From positions 1 to 37,264 of the forward strand of contig JAFEFW010000657.1 in the NCBI GenBank assembly GCA_018240405.1: a stretch of 37,264 nucleotides of DNA. The letters run 5' to 3'. Position 1 is the stretch's first letter, and every line of letters begins with the position of its first letter. Source of the stretch: Pseudomonadota bacterium. Its GTDB lineage: Bacteria > Pseudomonadota > Alphaproteobacteria > Acetobacterales > Acetobacteraceae. This document shows positions 18,389-24,349 of the stretch, one piece after another. Under the pieces are notes generated by a model. It did no database searches, had not been told where the DNA came from, and was given only the letters and a program-made list of their open reading frames with translations. The position numbers and the translations under genes were made by a program.

Positions 18389-19477
18389 CTACTCCACCAC
18401 CGACAGCGTAAGAGAGCGGAAGGCGATCGCCAGGCGGCGGTCGTCGTCCTCGTTACAAGCCTGGCGCGGGCTCATCGCGTCGGGGTGTTCGAACACAATC
18501 TCGGCTCCGTTGCCGCCTTGCAGCAGGCGGCCGGGGATCTCGAACGCCACCAGATCCCGCGGCAACGCGTCGAACCGCTGCACCGTTTCACCATTAATCT
18601 GCACGCGAAGGCGTTGGGCTGCCAGGCGCGGCGGTGAAACGAAGGGCACGACGTCCATCTCCAGGCGGAAGCGCTCTGCCGGACGCAAGGCCGGCAAGCG
18701 AATCACGCTCCGGTCGTCAATCGACCAGCAGAACCCGTTCTCCTGTCCCGACCACCCAGCGCCCAGGTAGCCGGCAGCGTTGCCGGCGGAGCCAAAGGCT
18801 ACATCGATTCGCGCCGGCCGTGTTTCGGCGGCTGCCAGACGTACGCCTTCTGCAGGACGCAGCGCGTGGGCGCGGCGCAACATGGTGATCCAGGATGCGA
18901 CATCGACGTCCGGGACGCGTGCGCGTGGCGCCAAAAAGGTCACGTAGCCGACCATCAAGCGAGCATCGATCACCTCCACGGATCCAGCCGGATGGCCCGG
19001 CCGCTCCGCCTGCACCCACAGCAGAACGCCCGGGCCGTAAGCCGCAAGGCCCTGGCGCAGGTCGTTGAGGTCGTTGGCGAGCAGCGGCTCATTCTGCCGG
19101 AACACCAGGATCTTCTCGCCTGAGGTCAAATCGGCGATCAGCTTGTCCGCCAGGAAAGGCACGACCCGTGCCTGCTGCTGGTGCAACGCGGCCGGGTCCG
19201 CCGCGCCGATGCGAACATCCGCATGGTAGGCAATGCCGTAGCGTCGCAAGTTCACCATGTACTCGTCGTTCATCGGCACGATCACGATCTGCGCCGGATC
19301 GCCGACGCCTTCAAACCGCGCGGCCAACGCCGTCACCAGGTTGCGCACCGGCATGCCGCCAAAGCGAAGCAGGCCAAGCGGCTCCGCCCCGACGCGGCGC
19401 TGCACCAGGCCAAGCTCGCAGTTGTCGCCAAGACTTTCGAACTGCGTCACCAGATTGACGTCAGAGAGGATCGACAT
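18389..19477 (-). CDS. Uncharacterised two-domain protein A: 'SLGDNCELGL' domain followed by beta-sandwich-like domain
   Basis: The function is unknown. The 362-residue product has two parts. Domain 1 (about 10-205) opens with FESLGDNCELGLVQRR and EPLGLLRF; Cys20 and His85 (RYGIAYHAD) are also kept in its paralogue. The SLG-x-NC and YGxxxH patterns recall DUF1796, described as putative papain-like cysteine peptidases, so a Cys-His catalytic pair is possible. Domain 2 (about 218-362) has GYLGAGWSG, MDVVPFVSPP, EHPDAMSP and RRLAIAFRSLTL. It reads as a beta-rich module like those appended to some envelope glycosyltransferases. ATG 19477 has GAGG a few bases upstream. No signal peptide is seen. 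The protein at 22787-23992 has the same two domains in the opposite order. Confidence 0.8.
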   Translation of the reverse strand: MSILSDVNLVTQFESLGDNCELGLVQRRVGAEPLGLLRFGGMPVRNLVTALAARFEGVGDPAQIVIVPMNDEYMVNLRRYGIAYHADVRIGAADPAALHQQQARVVPFLADKLIADLTSGEKILVFRQNEPLLANDLNDLRQGLAAYGPGVLLWVQAERPGHPAGSVEVIDARLMVGYVTFLAPRARVPDVDVASWITMLRRAHALRPAEGVRLAAAETRPARIDVAFGSAGNAAGYLGAGWSGQENGFCWSIDDRSVIRLPALRPAERFRLEMDVVPFVSPPRLAAQRLRVQINGETVQRFDALPRDLVAFEIPGRLLQGGNGAEIVFEHPDAMSPRQACNEDDDRRLAIAFRSLTLSVVE

Positions 19478-19649
19478 AGCGCCTCATAGTCCGAAAATCA
19501 TTGCCGTAGAAATATAGTCGCCGATCAATCGCAGTGACCGGTCCATCCGGAAAGATCAGGCCGGCTGACCATCACGGGAAATCAGCCCTTAGCCGGCGCG
19601 GCGACCGGCGATGAATCGCATGCACCCGTTTCCGGTGTAAGCTGCCACG

Positions 19650-20363
19650 ATGACCGAAGCGAACGACCGGATTCTGGGCGTATTGGGCGGTATGGGCCCG
19701 CTGGCAAGCGCCCACTTCATGCTGCGCCTGACCCTCCTGACCCCCGCTACGCGGGACCAGGAGCATATCCCAACCGTCCTATGGTCGGACCCGCGCATAC
19801 CAGACCGCATTGCCGGCCGCGCCGGTACCGGACCGGATCCGCTGCCATGGTTCCTGCGCGGGATCGACGGCCTGCGCCAGGCCGGTTGCGGCGCCATCGC
19901 TGTTCCCTGCAACACCGCGCATGCCTGGCACGATGAGATGGCAGCCGGAGGCCTGCCGATCCTGCACATCGTCGACGCCGCCGCCGCGGATCTGGACACG
20001 CTGCGCCTTGGATCGCGCCGCATCGGCGTCATGGGCACCGTGCCGACCTTGCAACTGCGGCTGTATCAGGACCGTCTATCCGCCCTTGGCTGGGACTGCA
20101 TCCAGCCGACCGAGGAGGAGATGCAGCGCCTGGTGCTGCCGGCGATCGCGCAGGTGAAGGTGAACCGCATGGCCGGGGCCTACGCTCCGCTGGTCGAAGC
20201 GGTGAACAATCTGGCGTCGCGCGGCGCCGCGGCCGTCGTGCTGGGCTGCACGGAAATTCCCCTCGGCATCCTCGCCGGCCCGCAGGAGGCGTTACGCGTA
20301 CCCGTCGTCGACACCATCGACTCGCTTGCACGCGCATCGATCCGCTGGGCTCGGCCCGGCTGA
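19650..20363 (+). CDS. Aspartate/glutamate racemase family protein
   Basis: This 237-residue PLP-independent racemase is of normal family length. It opens with the family signature ILGVLGGMGPLAS. The two catalytic cysteines are visible as Cys87 in AVPCNTAHAW and Cys200 in VLGCTEIP. Both are Cys with the expected spacing between the two pseudo-symmetric halves, which fits aspartate racemase-like enzymes rather than one-Cys homologues. The likely role is interconversion of L- and D-aspartate or a similar acid, but the family includes hydantoin racemases and decarboxylases, so the substrate is open. Its stop lies 17 bases from that of hflX, with which it converges. It is transcribed divergently from protein A. 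Confidence 0.87.
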   Translation: MTEANDRILGVLGGMGPLASAHFMLRLTLLTPATRDQEHIPTVLWSDPRIPDRIAGRAGTGPDPLPWFLRGIDGLRQAGCGAIAVPCNTAHAWHDEMAAGGLPILHIVDAAAADLDTLRLGSRRIGVMGTVPTLQLRLYQDRLSALGWDCIQPTEEEMQRLVLPAIAQVKVNRMAGAYAPLVEAVNNLASRGAAAVVLGCTEIPLGILAGPQEALRVPVVDTIDSLARASIRWARPG

Positions 20364-20380
20364 AAGGCACCGGCGGAAGA

Positions 20381-21802
<1,422 letters not shown>

Positions 21803-22139
21803 CCTTGGTTGCGTCGAACAACTGGATCGGCGCGCCTGGCATCACGGTGCTGATCGCATGCTTGTAGACAAGCTGCGTGTGTCCGTCCCGCCGCAGCAGG
21901 ACAGAGAAATTGTCAAACCACGTGATGATTCCCTGCAGCTTCACACCGTTGACCAGGAATACCGTCACCGGCGTCTTGCTTTTCCGCACATGGTTCAGGA
22001 AGACGTCCTGAACGTTCTGCGACTTCTCATTGGCCACGGCCATCTTCCTTCTTTTTGCCCCAACGGGTTCGATTGACGTGCAGTCCCCGACGGGTCGTGG
22101 CACGGCCGCCGGTTTATCCTTATAACCGCAACGAAGTTT

Positions 22140-22790
22140 TCAGGTAAGCTCACAAAGCCGAGAGGCAAGCCCCTCTGCTGTTGGAAAATGGATATCCGGG
22201 GCGGCATGGTCAACACCCCCATCATGCGCCGCATCGCCTAGCAGAACAGCGGTCAGGCCGGCAGCCTGAGCGGCACGCATATCCAGCGCGGTATCGCCGA
22301 CATACCAAACCTGTGGGGTGGGCGGGACGCCCATCTTGCTGAGTGCCAGCAACAGCGGCGCCGGATCCGGCTTGTCGGCCGTGGCGTCGCCGGCCCCGAC
22401 AACGGGTCCAAAGTACCTGCTCCAGCCCAGATGTGTCACCTCGCGCCGCAGGAAGGCGCCGGCCTTATTCGACACCACGCCCTGTGGTCGTCGCTCGCCA
22501 GCGCGCAACAAGGCTTCTATCCCCGGCATCGGCGTCACGTGCTGCAGATGGTTCTGCGTCAGCGACTGGTAGAAAATATCCCGCGCGTCCGTCCAACGCT
22601 CACCGAACATGACCGGAAAGCTCTCGCGCATCGAGACCCGGACCCGGTTGCGCGTGTCCTCCACGGTCCACAACGGCAGGCTAAAAGCGGTAAACGCGGC
22701 GTTCAGCGCGGCCGTGATGCCTGCCCAGGCATCCACCAGCGTATTGTCCCAGTCATACAGGACAACGGCAGGCGCCGAACTGGCCGTCAC
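22140..22790 (-). CDS. HAD-superfamily hydrolase (phosphoglycolate-phosphatase-like)
   Basis: This 216-residue phosphatase has a helical cap of the Gph/subfamily IA type. HAD motifs are present: I DWDNT (Asp13 nucleophile, Asp15), II VVSNK (Ser), III the Lys in ADKPDP, and IV GDTALD. The DWDNT variant rather than DFDGT is seen in a subset of alphaproteobacterial HADs. Its GTG start (22790) overlaps the stop of uncharacterised protein B in a GTGA, so the two are translationally coupled. The gene ends about 97 bases before hfq on the same strand. The substrate is unknown, but the coupling suggests a small phosphorylated metabolite or sugar phosphate linked to protein B. Confidence 0.86.
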   Translation of the reverse strand: MTASSAPAVVLYDWDNTLVDAWAGITAALNAAFTAFSLPLWTVEDTRNRVRVSMRESFPVMFGERWTDARDIFYQSLTQNHLQHVTPMPGIEALLRAGERRPQGVVSNKAGAFLRREVTHLGWSRYFGPVVGAGDATADKPDPAPLLLALSKMGVPPTPQVWYVGDTALDMRAAQAAGLTAVLLGDAAHDGGVDHAAPDIHFPTAEGLASRLCELT

Positions 22791-23992
22791 GCCGGCTCAC
22801 TGGTGCGACGTTGCAGCCCACTCAACACCACCGCGTTGGCGCAGATCCGCAGCCAGCCATCGAACGAGAAATTGTGCGCGTTGTCCTCAGGGGCAAAGCG
22901 GTCGATGTATCCCTTCAGCAACCCCGGCCGCACCACCTCGACGGTCCCAGCCGGACGGTCGGGTTCCGCCGGCATGACCCACAGCAACGTGTTCTCGGCG
23001 TAGCGGTTGAGCGACATGTGCAGCGGCAGGATCTCTTCCTCTGCAATCGTGACGTCCCGCTTGTAGACGAAGATCTTTTCGCCGGCCTGCAGCTCCTCGA
23101 TGAACTTGCGCTGCAGGAACTTCAACCGGGCGGATTCCTGTTCCCGCATCAGCCAGAGGCTGCGCTGCCCTTCGTAGACGAAGGTGTGGTAGACGAGGCC
23201 GAACTTCTTCTCGTGGATCATGTACTCCTTGCGCGGCCCGCCCTCCAGGCGCGGGTCGATGTCCTCGATCGCGCCGAGTCCGTCGAACTGGGACTCGATG
23301 CCGCGGATCAGGTTGCGCATGAAGGTGCTGGAGAAGCGCAGCAGGCCGAGCGGTTCAGAGTCGCAGCGGCGCTGGAACAGGCCAAACTCGCAGTTCTCGC
23401 CCAACGATTCGAACCGCATGGCGATCTGCGGAATGGTCAGGCCGGTGCGCCGCATCGCCCACTCGGCAATGTCGACATGGCCGCGCATGGTGATCCGGTC
23501 GGTTCCCGGGCCGAGCATCAGGCCGGGGGGCAGTCTTGAGGGGTGATCGCCGGCGTCCGTGACCCGGTAGACCCTGACCTCGGCAACCGAGAAGGACAGA
23601 TCGCGCTCGTCGCCGTTATCGGCAAAGTCCTTCGGCCGGACAGCATCCGGATGCTGCAGGGTGATCAGCACCTTCTCAGGTGTGTTCAGCATGGAACGGG
23701 ACAAGCGATAGGCGAGAAGGGTCGGACGGAAGAGGGTGGACGATCCGACCACCGCATCGTTGACCGAGACGATCAGGCGCTGGCTTGGCAATTCCGGCGG
23801 GTGGACGAACGGCACCACGTCCAGCGTGATGATGTATTCCTCCGCCGGCTCCAGCCGCGGCAGGATGATGTGGCTCTCTGCACCGAGGCACCAGGTAAAC
23901 TCAGGTTCCGACCGGGCCCAGCCGCCGCCGAGATAGGCGAGGCTGTTGCCCGAGGTGCTGAACCGGATCGTCAGGTCACATTCCAGGCCCAT
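22787..23992 (-). CDS. Uncharacterised two-domain protein B: beta-sandwich-like domain followed by 'SLGENCEFGL' domain
   Basis: The function is unknown. From ATG 23992 the product is 401 residues. An open frame reaches 24178, but the extra 62 residues look non-coding; no strong ribosome site supports either start. Domain 2 comes first (about 3-145: YLGGGWARSE, LDVVPFVHPP, QHPDAVRP). A linker follows (about 145-190). Domain 1 is last (about 190-390: FESLGENCEFGLFQRR, EPLGLLRF, FGLVYHTF, LQAGEKIFVYKRD, NTLLWVMPAEPDRPAGTVEV). Cys201 and His269 match Cys20 and His85 of protein A, which has the domains in reverse order. The stop overlaps the HAD gene start in GTGA. There is no signal peptide, so both proteins are probably cytoplasmic. 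Confidence 0.8.
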   Translation of the reverse strand: MGLECDLTIRFSTSGNSLAYLGGGWARSEPEFTWCLGAESHIILPRLEPAEEYIITLDVVPFVHPPELPSQRLIVSVNDAVVGSSTLFRPTLLAYRLSRSMLNTPEKVLITLQHPDAVRPKDFADNGDERDLSFSVAEVRVYRVTDAGDHPSRLPPGLMLGPGTDRITMRGHVDIAEWAMRRTGLTIPQIAMRFESLGENCEFGLFQRRCDSEPLGLLRFSSTFMRNLIRGIESQFDGLGAIEDIDPRLEGGPRKEYMIHEKKFGLVYHTFVYEGQRSLWLMREQESARLKFLQRKFIEELQAGEKIFVYKRDVTIAEEEILPLHMSLNRYAENTLLWVMPAEPDRPAGTVEVVRPGLLKGYIDRFAPEDNAHNFSFDGWLRICANAVVLSGLQRRTSEPA

Positions 23993-24349
23993 GCCAATCT
24001 TTATCCCAGGGCGGCCACAGCGCGTTCTTCCGGCGCCTGCCCACAAGCGCGTGAGAGACCGTTGTATGGGATTGTTTTGCGATGAGGCAAGGACTTGCAG
24101 CAGGACGGTACGTGGCAGGCAAAACATCCTGACGTTGCGCGGCCGCGAACCGCGGCATTTATCGAATCCTCTATTCAATGGAGGCGCGGCGTTGATGCCT
24201 CAACCGTCGAACAGGAGCACGGGGCACGCCTTCTGACCAGCACGCGCGCCGCCAGCCGAATTCGGCACGGAACCATGGTCTGGACGCATCCGCACCCGTC
24301 GCAGAGCGCGCTTGACGCCATCAGGGCGGCCATCCATGTCTGCACCGGC
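23993..24349. other. Divergent intergenic region between protein B and lipA
   Basis: These 357 bases lie between divergent starts and must hold promoters for both. No good -35/-10 pair is visible. A TTGCGC (24133-24138) is followed after 17 bases by TTTATC, which is a poor match. The lipA frame is open back to 24095, so part of this region could be an N-terminal extension, but it has no LipA character. No other gene or RNA is recognised. Confidence 0.35.

Follow-up and report, generated by a model that had tools for sequence, protein, structure and literature searches.

Two neighbouring proteins with the same modules in opposite order belong to a large unnamed family that may attach small acids to sugars

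In a 37,264-nucleotide stretch of a genome of the family Acetobacteraceae (GenBank assembly GCA_018240405.1, contig JAFEFW010000657.1, positions 1 to 37,264 of the forward strand; hereafter the window), two genes 3.3 kb apart encode proteins, here called A and B, that carry the same two domains in opposite order. How did two such proteins come to be neighbours, and what might this pair of domains do? Judged from sequence comparison, A and B are members of two separate subfamilies whose module order was swapped long ago. They are part of a large family without a name, in which some genes stand beside acyl-carrier genes, and this suggests the attachment of small acids to sugars. Below, S denotes the half with the motif SLGxNCE and b the beta half. 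The main features are as follows.

18389..19477, minus strand: protein A gene, 362 amino acids (aa), ATG at 19477; architecture S-b
18860..19462, minus strand: S domain of A, a DUF1796-like Cys-His domain, about residues 6-206 (profile match, hhalign to DUF1796)
19418..19420, minus strand: Cys20 codon of A, predicted nucleophile, immediately N-terminal to helix 21-28 of the AlphaFold model
19223..19225, minus strand: His85 codon of A, within strand 82-90 of the AlphaFold model
18410..18796, minus strand: b domain of A, residues 228-356, DUF7024-related, predicted jelly roll like that of carbohydrate-binding modules
22787..23992, minus strand: protein B gene, 401 aa from the ATG at 23992; architecture b-S
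23576..23962, minus strand: b domain of B (profile comparison, predicted fold)
22823..23434, minus strand: S domain of B (profile match, alignment, hhalign)
23390..23392, minus strand: Cys201 codon of B, opening helix 201-209 of the AlphaFold model
23186..23188, minus strand: His269 codon of B, within strand 266-273 of the AlphaFold model

Module order and the neighbourhood of A and B

When A was compared with B by BLASTP, the S halves (A residues 4-206) proved 34% identical (E 6e-39) and the b halves (A residues 224-352) 36% identical (E 2e-25), and in the AlphaFold models of the two proteins the order of strands and main helices, judged by eye, was the same in each half. With both genes on the minus strand, the opposite order of the two domains, noted in a preliminary description of this DNA, is thus borne out. 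Neither protein matched a model in Pfam or NCBIfam at E 1, and a sequence search with A matched no PDB chain. The reading frame of B stays open upstream to a TTG at 24178, and the end of the gene overlaps the following one, for a HAD-type hydrolase, by 4 bp.

The preliminary description took the arrangement for a domain swap between neighbouring paralogues, and the distance of just 3.3 kb speaks for a recent local duplication of this kind. We rejected this explanation, which now seems extremely improbable, because trees, identities and synteny all contradict it. A and B are 34-36% identical to each other, as against 52-57% between A and other S-b proteins and 55-74% between B and its syntenic b-S relatives at hfq-hflX loci, and they fall in separate clades of both the S tree and the b tree. 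These were quick trees, with near copies and three viral rows excluded and 129 columns in the case of b. The S-b rows form one clade in each (8 rows with a support of 100 in the S tree, 7 rows with a support of 98 in the b tree), and the 14 rows of a B-type set, which comprises 17 loci picked by synteny, form one clade in the S tree with no foreign row inside it (support 99-100). As the S-b rows are monophyletic in both domain trees, the comparison of sequences leads us to conclude that S-b and b-S are two separate subfamilies and that the swap of module order is old, one origin being enough for the sequences sampled. A and B would then have become neighbours in the window by a later arrangement of genes.

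The two genes keep different company in other genomes. Directly after B lies a gene that is part of a conserved order, B-HAD-hfq-hflX, the names HAD, Hfq and HflX having been assigned by eye from sequence:

22140..22790, minus strand: HAD-type hydrolase gene, not FkbH-like

This order was found in 16 of the 17 B-type loci (L074-L089 and L098), the remaining one, L081, being cut after B, and in 9 of the 17 lipA lies divergently on the other side of B. In one of them, L080, the racemase and helicase matches, to genes between which A lies in the window, have their starts separated by 762 bp, too little to accommodate A. From members of the genus 13 A-like stretches were fetched, and 11 of them contained an S-b protein related to A (52-56% identical), in all 11 on a contig, in these draft assemblies, other than that of the genome's best S match; in five genomes (G001, G006, G008, G009 and G512) the B-type locus was fetched as well and confirmed through its neighbours.

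Both module orders, as the preliminary description had proposed searching for, recur in other genomes. The window's own genome (7.37 Mb in 681 contigs) carries S on five of them and, on another, DUF7024-like repeats behind a GT4 domain; of 120 genomes from the same family 40 contain S, as do 18 of 20 from the genus. When named genomes were scanned, 175 places were confirmed; the 80 loci retained from them come mostly from Acetobacteraceae and Rhodospirillales, besides Methylobacterium, Nitrospirillum and a few other groups. The fetched loci hold 145 S matches and 110 b matches, a recurrence well past coincidence. In the 151 open frames that contain S or b, the architecture was b-S in 68, S in 48, b in 13, S-b in 9, b-b-S in 5, S-S in 4, b-b-S-S in 2 (a single S being divided between two matches), six b in 1 and S-S-S in 1, counts that include genomes repeated between overlapping collections and frames cut at locus ends. 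The idea that the two domains work as a pair whatever their order therefore holds in part: both orders occur, but S lacks a detected b in 53 of the 151 frames, some of them cut at locus ends, and b is also fused to GT90, GT61, TylF, GT4 and WcbI-like domains.

The S and b domains and their relatives

The Cys and His that the preliminary description had singled out in each protein are correctly placed and well conserved, the Cys in 91 of 92 aligned S copies and the His in 82. Cys20 and His85 are invariant in an alignment led by A (57 rows) and Cys201 and His269 in one led by B (50 rows), both being chosen sets from which the majority of divergent copies were left out; the pair is also invariant in a 20-row S alignment. 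The sole copy without the Cys, the first of L113, lacks the His too. Copies in which the His is replaced come from L121, L126, L131, L133, L113, L127, L068 and L135, and in three of four from Methylobacterium or Beijerinckiaceae the replacement is Asn. Another alignment, A7, was discarded, having no invariant column and a mean identity of 23%, with b fragments judged to be misplaced onto S.

The lead to the papain-like family DUF1796 (PF08795) also proved sound, in a qualified sense. By hhalign, S matched DUF1796 with a probability of 96.5% (E 9.3e-10, 149 columns), with the Cys aligned, the His one column apart in both S-DUF1796 alignments, and negative controls. Both have an LGxxC start followed by a His, at a distance of 65-68 residues in A and B and of 86 in the DUF1796 protein L139; in an alignment of 10 DUF1796 proteins the invariant residues are a Gly, the Cys, the His and a Leu. 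The motifs FESLGxNCEFG and EPLGLLRF, in contrast, are S's own, and the PF08795 model was reached by just 3 of 92 S copies (best E 2e-4), A and B not among them. A scan of 20 relatives with PF08795 gave no match, but control genomes were silent too, so that scan is uninformative. Given profile homology without a match to the Pfam model, we regard S, at the level of sequence profiles, as a distant sister family of DUF1796 of which A and B are not members. S as a relative of WcbI (PF18588) was rejected, the hhalign probability being 0.3% with a WcbI alignment of just 3 rows.

An S domain lies in Erwinia phage phiEt88 (23809-24420; 23% identity to A, E 3e-11), L138, whose record has the same length (47,279 bases), being probably the same phage, and an unnamed PHROGs family was matched by 2 of 92 S copies at E 0.008. 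In a Lederbergvirus of Escherichia (L145:2932-3624) a DUF1796-like gene lies between a tailspike/esterase gene and the integrase gene, an interval that is a frequent home of genes that change the O antigen. Some DUF1796 genes stand beside polysaccharide genes: in Priestia and Terribacillus plasmids (L143, L144 and L146) they adjoin wecB, glycosyltransferase or pseudaminic-acid genes, with up to 5 DUF1796 places per plasmid.

Could S then be a true papain-like cysteine peptidase or amidase, directed by b to a glycosylated target? The sister family carries that name in Pfam, the Cys stands at the start of a helix and the His in a strand of the AlphaFold models, and viral proteins named papain-like, which may be DUF1796 proteins named after Pfam, top the list of predicted-structure matches. 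The DUF1796 label is itself 'putative', however, the plasmid genes just described lie among polysaccharide genes, and the fusion and gene partners of the family include glycosyltransferases, methyltransferases, FkbH and acyl carrier protein (ACP); we consider a peptidase improbable. Searches for 'putative papain-like cysteine peptidase' found just work on barley, none was found under the names DUF1796 or DUF7024, and PF08795 and DUF1796 do not appear in the accessible portion of the main text of a paper classifying papain-like proteins (PMC10318531).

For b, the expectation of a ligand-binding second domain appears likely to be right. Its predicted fold, in AlphaFold models and a PDB fold search, is a jelly roll resembling that of carbohydrate-binding modules (CBM22, CBM35, CBM36 and CBM6), to which b is, however, just 6-16% identical; the b profile matched no PDB rows. 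Profile comparison shows homology to the repeats of DUF7024 (PF22895; probability 99%, E 6e-18), which follow a GT4 domain in the window's genome, while 0 of 44 b copies matched PF22895 at E 0.1; by these profiles b is a sister family of DUF7024 outside the Pfam model. The protein in question (L024:5282-9538) has 1418 aa, its GT4 domain being accompanied by six predicted DUF7024-like jelly rolls in tandem.

Partners and a proposed reaction

The partners of S point to glycans and to acyl carriers. S is fused to GT61 domains (C153 of the window's genome, L097, L106, L110 and L095) and, in one chain, to WcbI and TPR repeats (L101:101-3670, which also has b, and L068:7579-10398), WcbI scoring above the Pfam cut-off in both; the b-S protein of L060 carries a fused sulfotransferase. 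A GlcNAc 2-epimerase gene adjoins a b-S gene in L057 (6636-7823), and its family accounts for 3 of 125 neighbouring genes. In the census of these 125 genes (54 loci, at most 3 genes per locus, long proteins trimmed to 450 aa), FkbH_N was the commonest family, with 8, and no glycosyltransferase was among the 25 of 118 families listed, a result that moved our reading from a polysaccharide cluster to an FkbH/ACP partner.

All six FkbH-like neighbours tested passed the NCBIfam FkbH model. FkbH lies within 6 kb of S at 11 of 34 places in the 120 family genomes, as against 0.25 expected, and at 7 of 29 in the 20 genus genomes, as against 0.28; the expectation was calculated from genome lengths, ignoring contig ends, and a limited number of candidates was scored per genome. 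Each of two split FkbH genes was merged into a single place, and the S rows dropped were one from the family set and 13, either short or second parts, from the genus set. Beside S-b genes, FkbH was found in 5 of 11 genus stretches.

ACPs were sought with a small purpose-built profile, distances being measured from stop to stop, and 5 of 6 tested passed the Pfam cut-off. An ACP lies within 3 kb in 25 of the 80 loci, in one case another gene's; if FkbH is counted too, the loci with one or the other within 3 kb of S number 21 of the 55 mixed, 4 of the 8 S-b and 1 of the 17 B-type loci. In another collection of 29 loci with 1.5-kb flanks, which overlap with the named loci, 14 have an ACP or FkbH. 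Two of 16 ACP places in the window's genome are near S genes (C573, at 60 bp, and C653, at about 1.7 kb). In L185, L177, L180 and L104 a b/WcbI-like gene, ACP, FkbH and an S-b gene occur together in one cluster.

A and B, then, are both two-module members of a single large family, and are probably cytoplasmic, as no signal peptide was seen by eye. We suggest that the Cys of S, as nucleophile, would take an acyl group from ACP and S would pass it to a sugar or glycan acceptor held by b; where an FkbH-like gene is a neighbour, the group transferred could be glycerate, with glyceryl-ACP as its carrier form. A precedent is BtrH, an ACP:aminoglycoside acyltransferase (PF14399 N-terminal domain) that PMC10318531 classes with papain-like proteins: a protein of the papain group that moves an acyl group from ACP to a sugar-like acceptor, the likeness to S being purely one of analogy. 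In the capsule enzyme WcbI, according to PMC4104973, the acetyl group of bound acetyl-CoA touches Cys14 and His201. Taken together, this evidence favours ACP-dependent glycan acylation as the best reading for S, one that we put forward tentatively and judge to fall somewhat short of probable.

Several observations weigh against it. In the b fold search Eph receptor and toxin domains reach scores as good as those of carbohydrate-binding modules, so the jelly roll is no proof of sugar binding, and the WcbI-like matches in the b fusions L104, L185 and L180 are under the Pfam cut-off. Most FkbH places (23 of 34 and 22 of 29) lie away from S, and the FkbH profile, built from neighbours of S genes, may favour such copies. 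No ACP or FkbH lies within 3 kb in 54 of the 80 loci, many of them cut at contig ends; in the 17 loci of the B subfamily the single match belongs to another gene, and the window holds no match to either beside A or B. A and B may thus draw on an ACP encoded elsewhere, or may be different. The S and DUF1796 profiles gave PDB rows at E 0.33 or above only, no credible solved-structure match by sequence, and the PDB fold lists for both models are filled by b matches, so that a solved fold for S can be neither named nor excluded. Lastly, of the 10 S copies without the His, four come from loci of Methylobacterium or Beijerinckiaceae in which FkbH is present.

These His-less copies, like the fusions to glycosyltransferase domains, would suit a non-catalytic S that serves as a docking or scaffold domain for glycan enzymes or ACP, its Cys and His being structural. 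The near-universal Cys, missing solely where the His is missing too, and the invariance of both residues in all 10 DUF1796 proteins argue otherwise, and we rate a scaffold as a rather unlikely alternative. S might also act on an ACP thioester as a thioesterase or in the synthesis of a small molecule, b binding something other than sugar: FkbH and ACP serve polyketide pathways too, and acyl-CoA dehydrogenases (up to 4 of 125) are found among the neighbours, as is, in C653 of the window's genome, an AMP-binding ligase. This we think doubtful, since glycosyltransferase, WcbI-like and GlcNAc-epimerase partners recur.

Significance for S, DUF1796 and WcbI

In the literature found, DUF1796 has no described function and WcbI no demonstrated activity; three assays of WcbI showed none, and a partner presenting the acceptor was proposed (PMC4104973). 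A broader extension of the acyl-transfer reading, which is speculative and which we hold to be unlikely as a whole, is that the S proteins form an unrecognised system for glycan acylation. FkbH would make glyceryl-ACP, S and by extension DUF1796 would transfer glycerate or a similar acid by way of the Cys, b would present the glycan, and the same machine would include the WcbI domains that are joined to b or S, so that these modules would be the kind of partner proposed for WcbI.

The S family is a widespread sister of DUF1796, and its two orders show that the modules need no fixed sequence along the chain. With a conserved Cys and His, a module that resembles sugar-binding ones, and FkbH or ACP genes nearby, a concrete reaction can be proposed for S, and with it for DUF1796 and WcbI.
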